In this document: positions 1 through 7,735 of the stretch, one piece after another
How the letters are laid out: each line of letters starts with the position of its first letter
How positions within the stretch are numbered: the stretch's first letter is position 1
Assembly: GCA_025353725.1 (NCBI GenBank)
Contig: JANXOF010000094.1
Span: 1 to 55,417, forward strand
Source of the DNA: Polyangiaceae bacterium
Lineage (GTDB): Bacteria; Myxococcota_A; Polyangia; Polyangiales; Polyangiaceae
DNA length: 55,417 bases
Direction of reading: 5' to 3'
The notes under the pieces: model-generated
The model's input: only the letters and a program-made list of their open reading frames with translations
Told to the model about the DNA's origin: nothing
Database searches by the model: none
Translations under genes and position numbers: made by a program

Positions 1-210
1 TCGTGTCGTGCACGCGTTGCGGGGTGAATCCCGTCGACTATCTTGAAGACGTACTCGACCGTATCGACAAGACCTCCGCGGACGCGATGCGCGATTGGCT
101 ACCCGACCGGTGGAAGCGACCCGCGAAGCCCACGGCGGCTACCGATTTCGTCGAATAGCGATCCGAACCACTGCCAAAAACCCCGTTTATGTCCAAAACC
201 GTACAGTTAC
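1..210 (+). mobile_element. Right end of an IS66-family insertion sequence (partial)
   Basis: The window opens inside an IS66-type element. The transposase C-terminus ends at 156-158. About 50 bp later, 195-210 reads as a 16-bp tract ending in GTTAC, which in reverse complement starts GTAAC, the form expected for an IS66 terminal inverted repeat. The frame that becomes a nuclease starts making sense directly after 210, so 210 is the inferred element edge and 211-218 the candidate 8-bp target duplication. The left end lies outside the window, so the duplication cannot be confirmed. Confidence 0.7.
3..158 (+). CDS. IS66 family transposase, C-terminal fragment (5' end outside window)
   Basis: Reading from base 3 gives 51 codons to a TAG at 156-158. 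The peptide contains NPVDYLEDVLDRI and then LPDRWKRP. This matches the IS66 transposase C-terminal element (IS66_C), usually of the form NPxxYLxDVLxRI...LLPxRW. The remainder of the roughly 500-residue protein must lie upstream of base 1. The transposase would catalyse cut-and-paste movement of the element. Completeness and activity cannot be judged from this fragment. Confidence 0.8.
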   Translation: MSCTRCGVNPVDYLEDVLDRIDKTSADAMRDWLPDRWKRPAKPTAATDFVE

Positions 211-1737
211 GGCGATCTTTCCCGGCGCGCTGCAAGGTTCTTGAACCCGGAAGCCGAGCAATTCGGTGCCGTCGTCCTTAAAAGCCGCTCGCTCGCCGCG
301 GACGTGTTCGAGCGCGAAGCGGCACGGATCCCGGTCACGCCGCGCAGACTGCAAACCACAATGCCCCGACCGTGGGCACCGGACGTCCGGCAAGCTGATC
401 AGGCAGATCGCCCGATCGTTTCCGCGGACGAGCACGATCTCGACGCGACCGTCGTTGACGGTTCGTTTTCGTTCAAGACCTTGGCTCCTCGCTTCGATCG
501 GCTGGGCGTTCATCTCGGACGCGCCGCTTGGGCGAACGTGGTCGAGCTCCACTCGGCGGACATGCCGACGCTCGCGACGGTGTTCCCTACCTCGATCGAC
601 GATGTTGCTCGCGTCGTTGCTCGGTGGCCGGCGACCGAATCAGTGCACGTCTCTTCGGAGGGTCTGACGGTCTTCGACTCAGCGGGCGGTCAGACCCACT
701 GGTGGAACGTGCCGACGGGACTCAAGGTGTTTCGCACGTGGGCGACACCGCGCTTCGACGCGAGTGTCTCCAGCGCGGGCCGAATCACCAAGCGCTTGTT
801 AGACATCCTGGGCGGCCCCGAGCGGTCCCGAACGGCAACCCACCCCGAGATGATCTTGCTCTTCGATGAAGTATCCAAGGCCGCCTCGCGCAGCATTCGC
901 GCCGACCTTCTGTATGGGAAGTTGAAGAAATTTCACCAGAATCACGATGTGCCAACGAAGAACGTCCTGACGTACTGGCTCCAGCGTGGTGTCCTTGCCG
1001 TCGGCCTCCAAGTCTATTGCGACGAGTGCGGCCAGGAGAACTGGTATGCGCTCGACGAACTGAGTGAGCGCCTGCGATGTACGCGGTGCCTCGAACACTT
1101 CACGTTTCCCGGCGTGTCGCCAAACAAGAAGAGTGGCTGGGCATACCGCCCGCTTGGGCCGTTCTCCGTCGAAGGTCACGCTCACGGTGCTTTCACGGTC
1201 GCGGCGACGATTCGGTTGCTCCAGAGCTACGGCTCGGGCCGCACGACCTGGGTACCCAGCGTCGAGCTGCGCTCCCCGGGCGGCATTCACCTCGAGGTCG
1301 ACTTCGCCCTCTTCTGAGCGCGCGAATTTCGACGAGGTCACCCGCCCAATCTCGTCTTGGGAGAATGCAAGACTTTTGGCGCATTCAAGAAGCACGATCT
1401 TGAGAAGATGCGTGCGCTGTCGCAGCACTTCCCCGGCGCAGTATTGGCGTTCGCGTCGATGACCACCAAACTAACCTCCGATAAAGTCGAAGCTCTACGC
1501 GCGCTCGCAACGTGGGGTCGGCGGAGGTGGCAAGCGCCGGTGCTGGTTTTGACTGCGCGTGAACTCGCGAGCGACTTTGGATCGCCCAGCTGCTGGAAGG
1601 CGGGCTCCCCCGTGGAGAAGGCACTCGCCGACAGCTTCCGGGGTCGCTCCAGCTTTTGGATGCTGTGCGACGCGAGCCAGCAGGTTCATCTAGGTTTGCC
1701 GCCGAGCAGCGACTGGCCCCACTACGAGTCGCCATGA
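211..1737 (+). pseudogene. Zn-ribbon PD-(D/E)XK-type nuclease, truncated by IS66 and split by an in-frame TGA
   Basis: One reading frame runs from the IS66 edge at 211 to a stop at 1735-1737, interrupted only by TGA at 1315-1317. The first part has an N-terminal region of unknown family and a zinc ribbon (CDECG...CTRCLEHF). It then reaches EVDFALF just before the TGA. The same frame continues with LVLGECKTFG and an alpha/beta segment ending in ATWGRRRWQAPVLVLT. The Asp of EVD (codon 1300-1302) and the ECK (1363-1371) fit the D...ExK metal-binding core of PD-(D/E)XK nucleases, with the stop between them. The natural N-terminus is missing because the insertion sequence replaces it. An open frame can be read back to 43, but that part is transposase DNA out of frame. 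The likely ancestral role was DNA cleavage, possibly defence, given the AbiE genes downstream; that role is inference. Confidence 0.7.
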
Positions 1738-1879
1738 CGGCCGCCTGCGCGAGGAAGGTCGAGCGGACCCTGCCGGGCGAAGGGGCGGCTCGGTCGCGAT
1801 GAGCTCGCGCGCTCTCGATGCCGAACGCGGAAGCCATCCTCAAGAGCGCGCCCGTCCGCGAAAGCGCTGGGCCGTTGCG

Positions 1880-1893
1880 ATATGTCGGCATAT
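1880..1893. promoter_or_regulatory. Candidate AbiE operator palindrome
   Basis: An inverted repeat ATATG-N4-CATAT stands in an AT-rich patch 14 bp before the preferred abiEi start. AbiEi antitoxins are known to repress their own operon by binding inverted repeats near the promoter. The position and the local fall in GC support an operator/promoter, but no convincing -35/-10 pair was assigned. Confidence 0.35.
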
Positions 1894-1907
1894 ATTCATA
1901 CCTGCCG

Positions 1908-2513
1908 ATGGTTCGTAACGCGATCCCACCTGCTCGTCGTGTGAGCGCGATGCAACGCGGCGTCGTCCGGCCCCGCGACGTCGAAGGCAACGGCTTCTCC
2001 CGGACGCGACTCGAACGGATGACGCGCACCGGTGAGCTCGAGCGAGTCGGGCGCGGTCTTTACGTGCCGAAGGGCGCGGCAATCACGGAGCACCACACCC
2101 TGGTCGAGGCCGCGGCGAGGGTCCCTCACGGGATCGTCTGTCTCCTGACAGCTCTCAGGTTCCATGAGCTCGGAACGCAGAACCCCCACGAGGTCTGGCT
2201 TGCCGTGGATCGGAAGGCGCGAAGGCCCGTGGTCGACTGGCCGCCGATCCGTCTCGTGCGCTTTTCGGGCGAGGCGCTCACCTTCGGCGTGCAAACCCAC
2301 GAACTCGAGGGCGTCCCGGTGCGAATCACCTCGCGCGAGAAGACGGTGGCCGACTGCTTCAAGTACCGGAACAAGATCGGGCTCGACATCGCGCTCGAGG
2401 CGCTTCGTGAGTATCTCCGATCCAAGAGGAGATCGGTCGACGACCTGGCGCGGGCGGCGCGAGTCTGTCGCGTCTCCCGCGTGATGCAGCCCTACCTCGA
2501 ATCCATGGCATGA
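1908..2513 (+). CDS. AbiEi-family antitoxin (type IV toxin-antitoxin)
   Basis: The 201-residue product has an N-terminal winged-helix region (VVRPRDVEGNGFSRTRLERM followed by GELERVGRGLYVP) and a C-terminal antitoxin domain with VPHGIVCLLTALRFHELGTQ and SREKTVADCFKYRNKIG, all typical of AbiEi. It neutralises the AbiEii toxin without forming a stable complex and acts as the operon autorepressor. ATG 1908 was chosen because the helix before the winged helix begins there and the AT-rich palindrome at 1880-1893 lies just upstream. ATG 1818 would place that palindrome inside the gene; ATG 1950 is a shorter alternative. The stop overlaps the next start in an ATGA, so the pair is translationally coupled. 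Confidence 0.9.
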   Translation: MVRNAIPPARRVSAMQRGVVRPRDVEGNGFSRTRLERMTRTGELERVGRGLYVPKGAAITEHHTLVEAAARVPHGIVCLLTALRFHELGTQNPHEVWLAVDRKARRPVVDWPPIRLVRFSGEALTFGVQTHELEGVPVRITSREKTVADCFKYRNKIGLDIALEALREYLRSKRRSVDDLARAARVCRVSRVMQPYLESMA

Positions 2514-3430
2514 AGAAGCCGCCGACGAACATCGCGCACTCGGTCCGCGACCGCCTCCAAAAAGCCGCGAAGGCGAACGGCGAAGAGTTCACTTACGCGC
2601 TCACGCGCTACGGGCTCGAACGACTCCTCGCGCGGCTCGCCGCCTCGTCACACGCCGATGAGTTCGTTCTAAAAGGGGCGATGCTCTTCCGCGTCTGGTC
2701 GCCGACGCTCCACCGCCCGACGAAAGACCTCGATCTTCTCGGAAGCGGCGCGCCCGAGCTCGAGCGGCTCGCGAAGGTCTTCGCCGACGTGTGCGGCGTC
2801 GCCATCGAGGACGACGGAATGGTCTTCGACGCAAAGGCCCTACGCGCGGCGCGCATCAAGGAGGACGCCGACTACGAAGGCGTTCGAGTAACGCTCCGCG
2901 CAATGCTCGGCAGCGCGCGCATCGACCTGCAGGTCGACGTCGGCTTCGGCGACGCGATCAGCCCAGGCGTCGTCGACATCGAGTTTCCGACGATGCTCGC
3001 GATGGTCGCCCCGCGGCTCCGCGCGTACCCGAAGGAAACGGTCGTCGCCGAGAAGCTGCAGGCCATGGTGCACCTCGGCATCGCGAATAGCCGGATGAAG
3101 GACTTCTTCGACGTCTGGTTCCTTGCGCACACCTTCGCATTCGATGGCGTGACGCTCGCCACCGCGATCGCGGCAACGTTCGAGCGCCGCAAGACGCCGC
3201 TGCCGAGGGCGCTTCCGTTCGCCCTCACGTCCGACTTCTACGACAGCGACACCAAGGAGAAACAATGGAAGGCGTTTCGAACGCGCGCCGGCATCCCCGC
3301 CGAGTCACTCGCGACAGTCGCAGTCGCGCTCGTACCCTTCCTCGGTCCGGCGCTTGCCGCCGCCGCTGTGCCGGCGGCATTCCGCGCGGCGTGGCTGCCC
3401 GAGGGGCCGTGGAGGAAGGTCGAAGCGTGA
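2510..3430 (+). CDS. AbiEii-family nucleotidyltransferase toxin
   Basis: This 306-residue protein belongs to the AbiEii (DUF1814) nucleotidyltransferase-like toxins, which act on the translation apparatus and cause growth arrest or abortive infection. The family features visible are KGAMLF near residue 58, RPTKDLDLL with the D-x-D metal ligands near residue 75, the conserved KETVVAEKLQAM near residue 183, and MKDFFDVW near residue 202. The start overlaps the antitoxin stop by 4 bp. The C-terminal about 40 residues are Ala/Pro-rich and look less conserved. The gene appears intact. Its place between a broken nuclease and an integrase remnant fits a defence island. Confidence 0.92.
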   Translation: MKKPPTNIAHSVRDRLQKAAKANGEEFTYALTRYGLERLLARLAASSHADEFVLKGAMLFRVWSPTLHRPTKDLDLLGSGAPELERLAKVFADVCGVAIEDDGMVFDAKALRAARIKEDADYEGVRVTLRAMLGSARIDLQVDVGFGDAISPGVVDIEFPTMLAMVAPRLRAYPKETVVAEKLQAMVHLGIANSRMKDFFDVWFLAHTFAFDGVTLATAIAATFERRKTPLPRALPFALTSDFYDSDTKEKQWKAFRTRAGIPAESLATVAVALVPFLGPALAAAAVPAAFRAAWLPEGPWRKVEA

Positions 3431-3826
3431 TGTCCTCCCGGACGGCCGGCGTCGAACGCCACGAACTCCCCCTTGGCCCGAAACGCGCCGTAGCGAGCGA
3501 AACGTTTAGATCACGGACGTCGCAGCCCTTGACGAAGCGCCGCAGCGGAATCATCGTGAGAGCACAAGCGTCGCAGATCGCGGCGTAGGCGCACCTGGAA
3601 CGGAAGGAACGGATCGGACCAAGAACGAGTCGGCGTGTTGGTACCCGCCGAGAGCAAGACTCGTTTCCCGCTTGAGGCTCACCTGGAAAGCTCCGGTCGT
3701 CTGACCGTGATGCGCTGAGTTCGCGGACCATGTCTGATCCCTACCCAACGACACGGGCCTTGCCCGTGGGCATCTGTCTACCTGTCTCGCGTCTCTGCGC
3801 GCGACGTAGACGGCCGCGAGGTTTCA
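3431..3826. other. Intergenic region, no convincing gene
   Basis: About 400 bp separate the AbiEii gene from the J-domain-like gene. Open frames here are short and their peptides resemble no known family. The only structure seen is an imperfect 41-bp sequence at 3475-3515 that recurs at 4411-4451. A possible ribosome-binding GAGG lies at 3818-3821 just before the next gene. Confidence 0.5.
3475..3515 (+). repeat. Imperfect 41-bp direct repeat, copy 1
   Basis: This copy matches 4411-4451 at 33 of 41 positions, with the differences mainly transitions. Read on the minus strand, both copies encode RDL-x-V-x-L-x-TARFGP, and several of the changes are synonymous in that frame. It may therefore be the remnant of a mobile or coding repeat rather than chance. 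Both copies flank the J-domain-like gene. Confidence 0.5.
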
Positions 3827-4261
3827 ATGAACGCGTACGAGACTCTGGGTGTGCCCGAGACGGCCACCGCCGAAGAGATCAAGAAGGCCGGTCGCCAGCT
3901 CGCCGGAAGGTACCACGCCGACAACAAGGAGACTGGCGATGCCCGTCGCTTCGATGAGGTGATGAAGGCGCGTGCCGCGCTCGAGTCCGCAGACGCTCGT
4001 CAGCGGACGGACGACGAACTCCGGCGAGTGCGCGAAGCGGCCGCCGCACAGAAAGCGGAGGCTGCTATCGTCGCCGCGATCCGCACGGAGCTTGCCGGGT
4101 GGAATGCCATGCCGATTCAAATGGTTCCGAGTCCCGCACCGTCGGCGCTTGGGCCGTTCGCGACAGGCGTTGCGGTCGGCGCCGGCGGGGCGGTGTTCGG
4201 ATGGGCAATTGCGAGGATGCTCGACGGTGGACGCTCGCCGCGCCCGCGTCGGCGCCGGTAG
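3827..4261 (+). CDS. Membrane-tethered J-domain-like protein with altered HPD motif
   Basis: The 144-residue product starts with a J-domain-like stretch, YETLGVPETATAEEIKKAGR (residues 4-23). It continues with RYHAD where a J-domain has HPD; here the central Pro is Ala. A charged helical region with ADARQRTDDELRRVREAAAAQ follows. One predicted membrane helix (about residues 107-130, rich in Gly/Ala, FATGVAVGAGGAVFGWAI) precedes a basic RPRRRR tail. J-domains stimulate Hsp70 ATPase through HPD, and Pro loss usually abolishes this, so the protein may bind Hsp70 without activating it or have another role. GAGG at 3818-3821 supports ATG 3827. It is the last apparently intact island gene before the recombinase remnant. 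Confidence 0.65.
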   Translation: MNAYETLGVPETATAEEIKKAGRQLAGRYHADNKETGDARRFDEVMKARAALESADARQRTDDELRRVREAAAAQKAEAAIVAAIRTELAGWNAMPIQMVPSPAPSALGPFATGVAVGAGGAVFGWAIARMLDGGRSPRPRRRR

Positions 4262-4365
4262 TTCTCGCGACCGAGCGTGATCAAGAAAGACCCACACTCC
4301 TTCGGCGCGTCGGCTTCGTTACGCGCGGCTGGCGCGCCGTCAGAAGGCCTCCTCGACCAATCCGA

Positions 4366-4409
4366 TCCTCCCCACCTGCACGGGAATCCTCCCCACCAAC
4401 CTCCCCACC
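4366..4409 (+). repeat. Triplicated 11-bp arm-site-like repeat (left set)
   Basis: TCCTCCCCACC occurs at 4366-4376 and 4387-4397, with a 10/11 copy at 4399-4409. Reverse-complement copies with one mismatch each stand at 5074-5084 and 5086-5096 on the other side of the recombinase remnant. Short clustered direct repeats about 100 bp from an attachment core are the usual layout of tyrosine-recombinase arm-type binding sites. That role is inferred from position and repetition only. Confidence 0.5.
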
Positions 4410-4410
4410 T

Positions 4411-4451
4411 GGTCCGAAACGCGCCGTAACGAGTGGGACGCTGAGGTCACG
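4411..4451 (+). repeat. Imperfect 41-bp direct repeat, copy 2
   Basis: Second copy of the sequence at 3475-3515 (33 of 41 bases identical), in the same orientation and just right of the arm-site-like repeats. The interval 4262-4512 otherwise contains no supportable gene. Confidence 0.5.
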
Positions 4452-4512
4452 CTTTTCGCGGCCTTTCCCAGCCCTCGTAACCACGCGTAACGCGCTCTCA
4501 CACTTCCCCAGC

Positions 4513-4546
4513 CCTTGCCAAGGTGGACGTCGAGGGTTCGAATCCC
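4513..4546 (+). repeat. 34-bp tRNA-Gly segment copy (candidate attachment core)
   Basis: These 34 bases are identical to 5187-5220 read on the opposite strand, which is the part of tRNA-Gly(GCC) from the anticodon loop through the T-arm. Identity stops abruptly at both ends, so this is not a second tRNA gene. A tRNA 3'-half segment next to an integrase is the classic footprint of site-specific integration. Unusually, the two copies are inverted rather than direct. Confidence 0.75.
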
Positions 4547-4587
4547 AGCAGCTCCGACCGTCCTCGCTCCGGCCACTCCGCCGCCGT

Positions 4588-5136
4588 GGTGAGGAGGCAG
4601 ATGTCGATTGGGAGAACGGGCGCATCCGTGTTCGGCGCTCTCACTCACTGGGCGAGGAGGTGATGCGGACCACGAAGCAAAAACGGAAGTACGCCATCAC
4701 GTTGCCGAAGGAGGCGATCGACGTCCTCCGCTGGCACGTCGAGACGCAGCTAACAACGCCGGAGCAACGAGAGTCCGATCTCTTGTTCCCTGCCGTGAAC
4801 GGCAAGTTCAGGTCGCCCTGCGTCTTGAACAAGCCGCTCGCCGACGTTTCGGAGGAGCTTAAGTTGGGGAAGAAGATCACCCAACGCGCGCTCCGCCGCA
4901 CGTTCAACGATCTCGCGCGGGCCGCCCAGGTCAACGACCTGGTGACCCGACCGATCTCCGGCCACCTCACCGAGAAGATGCAGCACCACTACTCGACGGT
5001 GAACGGCAACGAGCAGCGCGACGGCCTCGCCAAGATCATCAGCATAATGAGCCGCCTCCCCGCAAAGGCGCCCGATGGGGAGGATCGTGGGGAGGAAGCC
5101 TGTGCGAGAGGGGAGGAAAAAGAAAAAGCCGGTTGA
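4588..5136 (+). pseudogene. Tyrosine recombinase/phage integrase, catalytic-domain remnant
   Basis: The frame encodes ADVDWENGRIRVRRSHS, then a Lys-rich TTKQKRKYAITLPKE, RALRRTFNDLARAA (box II Arg region) and SGHLTEKMQHHYS carrying the His and the nucleophilic Tyr. These are C-terminal catalytic-domain features of tyrosine recombinases. The N-terminal SAM-like DNA-binding domain and most of box I are absent; similarity starts about 40 bp after the tRNA-segment copy at 4513-4546. The open frame extends further upstream, but those residues are att and repeat DNA. The His of the usual HxLR is replaced (RALR). The stop sits in a terminator hairpin before tRNA-Gly. It is judged non-functional because of the truncation. 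Confidence 0.75.
5074..5096 (-). repeat. Arm-site-like repeats (right set, inverted)
   Basis: Two copies of GGTGGGGAGGA-type sequence (5074-5084 and 5086-5096, 10/11 matches each) are reverse complements of the three repeats at 4366-4409. They lie inside the 3' coding end of the recombinase remnant, about 90 bp from the tRNA-Gly core. Relative to the direction of the tRNA core they sit on the 3' side, while the left set sits on the 5' side of its own core. This would fit P and P' arms. Confidence 0.45.
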
Positions 5137-5152
5137 GGGAGTTCCTCAACCG
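5130..5152. terminator. Hairpin terminator between integrase remnant and tRNA-Gly
   Basis: A perfect 9-bp stem (5130-5138 with 5144-5152) encloses a 5-nt loop. On the minus strand it is followed by a T-rich tract (complement of 5115-5128, GGAAAAAGAAAAAG), so it should end transcripts leaving tRNA-Gly. On the plus strand it is followed by a short TTGTTTT tract and overlaps the recombinase stop codon. It may act in both directions. Confidence 0.7.
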
Positions 5153-5176
5153 ACTTGTTTTCCAGGCTTTTCCTGG

Positions 5177-5248
5177 AGCGGGAGAAGGGATTCGAACCCT
5201 CGACGTCCACCTTGGCAAGGTGGCACTCTACCACTGAGTTACTCCCGC
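5177..5248 (-). tRNA. tRNA-Gly (anticodon GCC)
   Basis: Read on the minus strand it folds as a normal tRNA: acceptor GCGGGAG/CTCCCGC, D-arm, anticodon stem CCACC/GGTGG around TTGCCAA (anticodon GCC), T-arm with GGTTCGAATCC, and discriminator T at 5177. The CCA end is encoded (complement of 5174-5176). Bases 5187-5220 are repeated in inverted orientation at 4513-4546, marking this gene as the attachment site of the island to its left. Confidence 0.97.
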
Positions 5249-5286
5249 AACGGATACGTTCACCGCGCTTTCGAGCGGTGGCGAAG

Positions 5287-6484: not shown

Positions 6485-7735
6485 TCAGCCGAAAAAACCG
6501 AGAGCGGCGTGGCTCACGATCGAGCCCTCTTCGGCATCGACGGTCTGCTCGTAGTGGCAAAGTCGGCCCTGAGCGCCGCTCGTGAGGACTCGGAGTAGAG
6601 CGTAGATAGGAGCAAGCCCGCAGACGCGTCGCGCGTCGAGATCCGAGGCGACGTGTCTCCAGAAGCCCTCGGCGTCGCCGCGAACCGCGTGGTCCAAGGA
6701 CTCACGATCGGTCTGTTCGAGCGCGTGTCGCTCGCCGTCATCGAAGGCGTGCGGATCGCCAAAGCGTGGGCCCACGTGTGCGAGATCGGCACCCGCAATG
6801 ACGACCGCGCGCGTGCCGTCTATGACGTCGCGCACGGCACCTAGAAAACGTTCGACGCTTCTCGATTGCCGCGGACTCGTACCGCTCGATTGTGCTTCTC
6901 CAAGACCTGCGAGAATAGGAATGATGCGAGCGCGGCGAGTGCCAATTAAATGCTTCAAAAAGACGGCTTGGAACTCGAGTGAGTGCTCCCGTTTGTGGTT
7001 GAACTGATTGGCATACGGGTCGAATTCGCTCGCTGCCGCGAGAGCGTCGATCGATTCCTTATCCGCTTCAAGCACGCCAAGCGGTGTGGCAAACGCTTTG
7101 CGGCACAACGCGAACGGCGCGCTCATCGGCGCGTGCGACGTGCCAAGGAGCACGAACGTATCGACGTCGGGCGGCAGCGCTCTCGCTAACGTTCCGTACG
7201 CTTCGCCGTAGCAGCGTGCGCCGCGCCATGGGTCAATGTGCGGCGCCACAAGTCCGAGCAGCGCGCCGCGAGGCTCCACGGCGTTCTCGCGATGCCTTCC
7301 GCTCGCCTGGCCAAAACACTCGCGTTCGATGTACGCGGTCAGCTGCGAAGCGTCTCCGTGGTACGCGCCGCCCGCGTGCGAAGCCGGACGTACCTCGGCG
7401 TCGGCGAATGCGCGCTCCACGCGTGTGCGTTCAGCTCGGTAGAGAGGCCCCTCGACGAACCAAGCTTGCTCCAGCTCCGTCGCGAGGCGTACGACGTCTC
7501 GAACGTCGACGCATTCTCCGAGGTCGCGCGAGGCTTGCTCCGCGATTTCGGCGCAGGTGTTCGTGCCCGTAAAACGTCCCACGAGCGGCACAAGCCCCAT
7601 TGGCAGCGTCGCGGGCGTGGGCGCTATTCCCTGCGTATCGCGCAGCATCAACATGCGCCCATCAAGCCGCCTAGGGTCGGCCACAACGATCGCCTCGACC
7701 GCACGAAGACGAGGACGCGACGTCACCGAAGCCAC
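6485..7735 (-). CDS. PqqD-like domain fused to Memo (AmmeMemoRadiSam system protein B)
   Basis: Residues about 140-415 form a Memo domain, with LVAPHIDPWRGA, LLGTSHAP, FNHKREHSLEFQAVFLKHL and GADLAHVGPRFG. The histidines in these blocks correspond to the metal-site residues of Memo proteins. Residues 1-110 resemble the small winged PqqD-like domain often fused to myxobacterial Memo proteins (LPLVGRFTGTNTCAEIAEQA type). Memo usually occurs with AMMECR1 and a radical-SAM enzyme; neither gene is nearby. The biochemical role of the bacterial family is not established. It is divergent from the metalloprotease gene at 7903, with about 165 bp between the starts. Confidence 0.85.
   Translation of the reverse strand: MASVTSRPRLRAVEAIVVADPRRLDGRMLMLRDTQGIAPTPATLPMGLVPLVGRFTGTNTCAEIAEQASRDLGECVDVRDVVRLATELEQAWFVEGPLYRAERTRVERAFADAEVRPASHAGGAYHGDASQLTAYIERECFGQASGRHRENAVEPRGALLGLVAPHIDPWRGARCYGEAYGTLARALPPDVDTFVLLGTSHAPMSAPFALCRKAFATPLGVLEADKESIDALAAASEFDPYANQFNHKREHSLEFQAVFLKHLIGTRRARIIPILAGLGEAQSSGTSPRQSRSVERFLGAVRDVIDGTRAVVIAGADLAHVGPRFGDPHAFDDGERHALEQTDRESLDHAVRGDAEGFWRHVASDLDARRVCGLAPIYALLRVLTSGAQGRLCHYEQTVDAEEGSIVSHAALGFFG

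Follow-up and report, generated by a model that had tools for sequence, protein, structure and literature searches.

A probable rearranged remnant of a tRNA-Gly-targeted tyrosine-integrase island, with an inverted attachment core, in a Polyangiaceae genome

The tRNA islands defined by Islander carry a restored tRNA gene with the integrase at one end and a displaced 3' fragment of that tRNA at the other, as set out in the excerpts consulted (PMC4383910). The same excerpts list three places of crossover, namely the anticodon loop, the T loop and the T/acceptor junction. The locus described here resembles such islands in having a tRNA with an adjoining integrase at one end and a displaced tRNA fragment at the other. 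It differs from them in that the fragment is inverted and short and the integrase is truncated; the orientation filter, as given in those excerpts, would reject it. A second likeness is to the Myxococcus phage Mx8, for which the portion of the source consulted (PMC6070905) describes an attP inside int. Here also the coding sequence of a myxobacterial tyrosine recombinase overlaps attachment-site DNA, in this case the P' arm. Unlike in Mx8, the core lies outside the frame and only arm sites overlap. The SSV-type suicidal integrases of archaea (PMC8371274, in excerpt) share with our locus a recombinase fragment that abuts a tRNA-derived core. Unlike the SSV-type arrangement, this abutment was seen in a single genome, and the relatives' full-length integrase frames revealed no tRNA-derived core within them. 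We did not find the layout described in the literature consulted, including the excerpts of these three sources, and make no claim that it is absent from print.

The window, i.e., the whole stretch of DNA that was analysed, comprises positions 1–55,417 of one contig in the 98-contig assembly of a Polyangiaceae bacterium, the source genome (G000). Its relevant features are as follows.

1–211, plus strand: C-terminal end of an IS66-type transposase (coding 3–155) at the contig start; Pfam DDE_Tnp_IS66_C, E 1.3e-6, 28.9 bits (cut-off 30)
1818–3430, plus strand: AbiEi (1818–2513) and AbiEii (2510–3430), toxin-antitoxin cargo; Pfam AbiEi_4 1.1e-10, AbiEii 2.1e-47
3459–3515, plus strand: second P-arm-like stretch, degenerate, oriented as the left attR; 80% to 4393–4451 (E 2.6e-5) and 83% over 53 bp to the attR of relative G005
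3827–4261, plus strand: DnaJ-domain gene between the two P-arm copies; Pfam DnaJ 1.9e-11
4365–4512, plus strand: best read as the P arm of a displaced attR, with three CCTCCCC sites spaced 21 and 12 and then 103 bp to the core; match to the attR of G005 and G011
4513–4546, plus strand: left core, a piece of tRNA-Gly(GCC) inverted relative to the tRNA; repeat identity
4547–4551, no strand: junction filler AGCAG, resembling neither the tRNA 3' end nor the relatives' integrase codons; comparisons
4552–5136, plus strand: C-terminal tyrosine recombinase fragment beginning at the Arg box (LRPSS), with no internal stop and without its N-terminal half; Pfam and relatives
5074–5117, minus strand: P' arm, three GGGGAGG sites (5077, 5089, 5110) in a stretch that the recombinase frame overlaps with its 3' end; repeat and motif counts
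5123–5159, plus strand: hairpin around the recombinase stop codon, possibly the recombinase terminator; fold −18.6 kcal/mol, z −2.14, 7/200 shuffles at least as stable
5174–5248, minus strand: tRNA-Gly(GCC), the integration target (attL), containing the right core 5187–5220; ARAGORN

A reading made from the sequence alone had placed a 34-bp tRNA-Gly segment at 4513–4546 and, inverted, within the tRNA at 5187–5220. This was borne out, the plus-strand copy at 4513–4546 and the minus-strand copy at 5187–5220 being identical at 34/34 positions. When the whole genome was searched at the DNA level with positions 4300–4660 as the query, the second copy was recovered with an E value of 3.4e-10, and no third copy of the core appeared. 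The two other tRNA-Gly genes fetched from the genome have the anticodons CCC and TCC. A second tRNA-Gly(GCC) was found neither in the genome search with the core nor among the matches listed in the DNA search of relatives. Since this tRNA-Gly(GCC) is the only one found and the core has no third copy, the left core is most simply derived from the tRNA-Gly at 5174–5248. It spans the region from the anticodon stem-loop to the T stem, and the final 13 bp of the tRNA gene are absent from it.

The positions of motifs and repeats also agree with the claim that triple repeats of the GGTGGGGAGG type flank the left core on its 5' side and the right core on its 3' side. The motif CCTCCCCACC occurs on the plus strand at 4367, 4388 and 4400, and a form with one mismatch occurs on the minus strand at 4588, 5074 and 5086. 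With up to one mismatch allowed, the window holds 10 matches against 2.51 expected (0/100 shuffles reached 10). The CCTCCCC/GGGGAGG cores of the repeats lie at 4367, 4388 and 4400 (spacing 21 and 12) and at 5077, 5089 and 5110 (spacing 12 and 21), and the two arm blocks, 4366–4412 and 5071–5117, are 47-nt inverted repeats with 79% complementarity. Arm-type sites with conserved geometry are present at both ends of the element. Between the core and the closest arm site lie 103 bp in the window and 106 bp in three relatives (G005, G011 and G009); the left P arm is 82% identical over 131 bp to the attR of G005 and 79% identical over 86 bp to that of G011. An integrase 3' end overlapped by arm sites was seen also in loci L046 and L048. 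In G020 and G081, a search around the far core revealed no arm site at up to one mismatch.

The two arms of the window differ from those of the relatives in strand. In G011, the sole relative with both arms on one contig, the repeats of both ends lie on the same strand, and those of G005, whose ends are on two contigs, lie on the same strand relative to the core. In the window, the repeats of the two arms are on opposite strands. This comparison indicates that the P arm and the core were turned as one unit.

The fragment at 4552–5136 matched the Pfam Phage_integrase profile at positions 47–169 with an E value of 1.3e-5 and 25.5 bits. This is just below the cut-off of 27.1, as are the scores of two full-length relatives (25.4 and 26.7 bits). 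It is 76% identical at the amino acid level to the integrase of locus L042 over 165 residues, and retains the Arg box (LRPSS), a GH and the final Y, as judged by eye. None of the 165 codons compared is a stop codon, and the changes with respect to four relatives are mostly at third positions (30, 20 and 75 differences by codon position against L041), as would be expected if the gene had been under selection before it was cut. The fragment adjoins the 3' end of the tRNA, 37 bp separating the two. Its N-terminal half is absent from the window and was not found in the G000 assembly, either by a single-sequence search or with a five-row profile that gave a positive result for 27 genomes in a set of 58 in which G000 was included and negative. 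The genome has four other Phage_integrase matches, all of which were missed by a protein search with the fragment.

The sequence-only reading had proposed that the inverted cores allow inversion rather than excision. With a recombinase supplied in trans, the segment 4546–5187 could then be flipped between the cores, and in favour of such an invertible element both half-sites keep core and arm sites and the cores are identical at all 34 positions. Core-to-core exchange in silico, however, replaced the 3' half of tRNA-Gly(GCC) and gave it a wrong acceptor end, after which ARAGORN found no tRNA. Against a flip supplied in trans stand also the failure to find another tRNA-Gly(GCC) in the genome or the N-terminal half of the integrase in the assembly, and the direct pairs of four relatives described below, and we regard it as hardly credible. 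A switch should have two viable orientations and a recombinase, whereas here the flip breaks tRNA-Gly(GCC) in silico and the integrase lacks an N-terminal half that could be found. The cores are therefore unlikely to serve as a working inversion switch. The recombinase remnant, the tRNA-Gly attachment cores, the arm-type repeats and a rearrangement that truncated the N-terminus stand as first read, while the idea that the cores are placed for inversion and not excision is not supported.

Positions 4300–5260 were used as a DNA query against 58 genomes, among them G000; 57 gave matches, most of those listed being plain tRNA-Gly-like genes. A search of relatives for similar elements had been proposed as a check. 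Related integrases, together with the same arm repeats, occur at tRNA-Gly or tRNA-Val in genomes of the same genus and family, and four of these genomes have direct att pairs. Full-length integrases of about 420–465 aa occur in G005, G011, G040, G050 and JACPFM010000124.1, and G049 has a full-length integrase with an in-frame stop. A scan of a contig collection yielded two loci, in JACPFM010000124.1 and in Myxococcales bacterium 68-20. No relative of the fragment was found in viral contigs or phage records, and no relative of the G005 integrase in plasmids; the latter protein had no match among PDB sequences at E ≤ 0.01.

Orientation was mapped in the window and at 22 loci. A second long copy of the tRNA 3' part lies on the same contig in three of the mapped loci, G020 (tRNA-Gly), G009 and G081 (both tRNA-Val), and in G011 (tRNA-Val) it was seen across two adjoining loci. 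The pair is direct in all four of these relatives with both tRNA copies on one contig. The exact blocks measure 48 bp (G020), 32 bp (G009), 45 bp (G081) and 46 bp (G011), and every one runs as far as the 3' end of the tRNA. Those of G011, G020 and G081 start in the anticodon stem-loop, that of G009 just after it. Blocks of this extent, with identity running between the anticodon region and the 3' end of the tRNA, fit the anticodon-centred class of Islander, as that class appears in the excerpts consulted (PMC4383910). The block of the window starts where those of the relatives do and, after 34 bp, ends in the T stem, so that it falls short of the tRNA end by 13 bp. Two smaller matches, a copy of 19 bp in G010 and one of 14 bp in G030, likewise share the strand of the respective tRNA, but are too short to weigh.

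Two further arrangements were observed among the relatives. At a tRNA-Val in G009 (L067 10005–11861), an element of about 1.8 kb has a P arm and a direct core copy, and no integrase of this family was found in that locus. In G005 (L046 10260–10480), the core beside the integrase is joined to DNA without a detectable tRNA, as after integration at a secondary site.

The displaced tRNA 3' fragment of the window is thus inverted where a direct one is the rule for such islands, and it is cut to 34 bp with 13 bp missing. As both a complete integrase and a direct fragment are lacking, the locus is classed as a rearranged remnant of a tRNA-targeted tyrosine-integrase island. The direct copies in four relatives make the inversion the derived state, and so uphold the alternative that had been offered at the outset, a rearrangement that also removed the N-terminus of the recombinase. 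We consider it probable that the locus is a decayed, rearranged island, that tRNA-Gly and tRNA-Val genes are the targets of its tyrosine-integrase family in these bacteria, and that its attR end was inverted after integration. In the most plausible reading, the left copy is the attR half of such an island, its P arm and core having been turned together and its end shortened by 13 bp.

The order of events that we infer is the following. Integration at the anticodon loop of tRNA-Gly would have produced a direct pair, with the tRNA, the P' arm and the integrase at attL and the P arm and the 3' tRNA fragment at attR. A crossover in the anticodon loop is favoured, since three of the four blocks in the relatives begin in the anticodon stem-loop. 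The attR end would later have been inverted relative to the tRNA. Of the two breakpoints, one would have fallen in the displaced tRNA fragment, roughly 25 bp beyond the anticodon loop, and the second at the Arg box of the integrase gene, the N-terminal half being removed or carried away. We favour a one-off inversion, with or without a deletion, in an island that was decaying. The reverse-oriented N-terminal half predicted at the far end was not found, and the contig ends there in an IS66-like repeat, so that an inversion and an inversion with deletion look alike here. This contig start has a 98% copy at C95:34455–34665, close to the end of contig C95; as the contig starts inside the repeat, the far breakpoint is out of view.

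The junction between core and integrase had been put at about 40 bp from the left core, which proved incorrect. Ten of the integrase-type matches listed (G002, G005, G011, G018, G020, G030, G040, G049, G050 and G055) start at query positions 252–256, i.e., at 4551–4555 of the window, and none of the relatives' matches listed crosses left into the core. The junction is therefore at the edge of the core, and only AGCAG (4547–4551) separates the core from the integrase codons. When 183 genomes of the order were searched with positions 4490–4640 (four first-look candidates scored per genome, among the matches listed), the only one to match at E ≤ 1e-12 was G000 itself. This uniqueness, together with an assembly of 98 contigs and a contig start in a repeat, is what an assembly or library chimaera at 4546/4552 would have in its favour. 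However, the AGCAG–CTCCGACC join is beyond what the 34-bp repeat alone can create and would need reads of its own, and the adjoining integrase frame and arm sites are intact; we hold a chimaera to be very unlikely.

Among 377 genomes of the phylum, only G000 and G298 contained a 21-mer across the junction with up to one mismatch (in G298 within a tRNA-Ala), and a 22-mer matched one tRNA 3' end in viral contig L098, a tRNA-Trp according to ARAGORN. No other site in G000 fitted the junction with 2 mismatches, and a loose T-loop/acceptor pattern revealed no other fitting place in that genome (the backward control gave 4 and 4 matches). A junction formed as a hybrid with another tRNA was considered and rejected, the match being judged a chance one because the T stem would not pair in the window.

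As the main reading, a junction made by the integrase was rejected: some 25 bp separate the break from the anticodon loop, in whose stem-loop three of the four blocks in the relatives begin. The break of the window is, however, close to the T/acceptor junction, a known alternative place of crossover, and for this reason the idea is retained as a remote candidate. Its position outside the anticodon loop favours an illegitimate join, which is most likely. There is only a slim chance that the integrase, or a relative acting in trans, recombined attR with a secondary site at its own Arg box and so left a self-truncated, locked-in element. In that case the cuts in G030 and G020, which lie close to the same codons, would stem from this reaction as well. 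A tRNA-adjacent integrase that lacks its 5' part was seen in other relatives too. On the 436-aa protein of G005, the tblastn alignments start at residue 165 for G002, 205 for G018, 239 for G030, 250 for G020 and 243 for the window. The integrase remnants on the tRNA-Gly side in G030 (L049 9924), in G020 (L048 11929–11950) and at 4552 of the window thus start within about 11 residues of one another, near the Arg box. This clustering of three of the five 5' cut points may be due to chance, since the fragments were selected by their similarity to the C-terminal part. It may be noted that contigs C11 and C51 of G033 (the end of L083 and the start of L071) meet inside the same integrase gene. Their exact overlap of 127 bp has its start at the codon of the Arg box, a picture that a branch of the assembly graph at one end of this stretch would give.

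The second P-arm-like stretch at 3459–3515 has the same orientation as the left attR, which suggests that the piece turned by the proposed inversion was larger than 1 kb. The stretch may also hint at more than one island end. The left attR could then have come from another island or strain, in the opposite direction, and have been fused by deletion to a resident integrase remnant; a second integrase fragment in G020 (L048 243–419) likewise suggests that islands stack at such tRNAs. Against two elements, only one tRNA-Gly(GCC) was found in the genome, and repeated integration at one tRNA leads to direct copies. We consider this origin unlikely. The stretch at 3459–3515 also includes a CCGAAACGCGCCGTA-like sequence common to the attR of G005, G011 and the window, possibly a candidate site for an excisionase or a host factor.

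Besides the missing reverse-oriented half and the small chance of a false join in the 98-contig assembly, further observations count against a post-integration inversion of the attR end as the main reading. AbiE genes are found near att sites also in G011 (L043 5840–7332) and G015 (L065 8780–9567), where they point away from att, whereas those of the window point towards the P arm; simply turning a single ancestral layout round would not account for this difference. The AGCAG filler likewise finds no explanation in the proposed inversion.

On the other side of the tRNA lies a gene (6485–7735) that we take to be MEMO-like. A MEMO-like gene next to the tRNA is common to G010, G008 and G009, and the DNA on the 3' side of the tRNA differs among them, so the left chromosomal flank could not be traced. 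The tRNA-Gly with its MEMO-like neighbour (the window, L037, L032, L024 and L047) seems to be a shared integration hotspot in the genus. In G008 (L032), a C-terminal piece of a different tyrosine recombinase appears to lie at this hotspot, as judged by eye.

Taken as a whole, the locus looks like ordinary mobile-element decay and not a working DNA switch, and the window itself, as a product of decay, is unlikely to have a function. It indicates that an inverted tRNA fragment can arise by rearrangement, in a layout that a standard island finder discards. The full-length relatives and the direct att pairs document, in this bacterial family, a family of integrases and attachment sites with clear arm sites.
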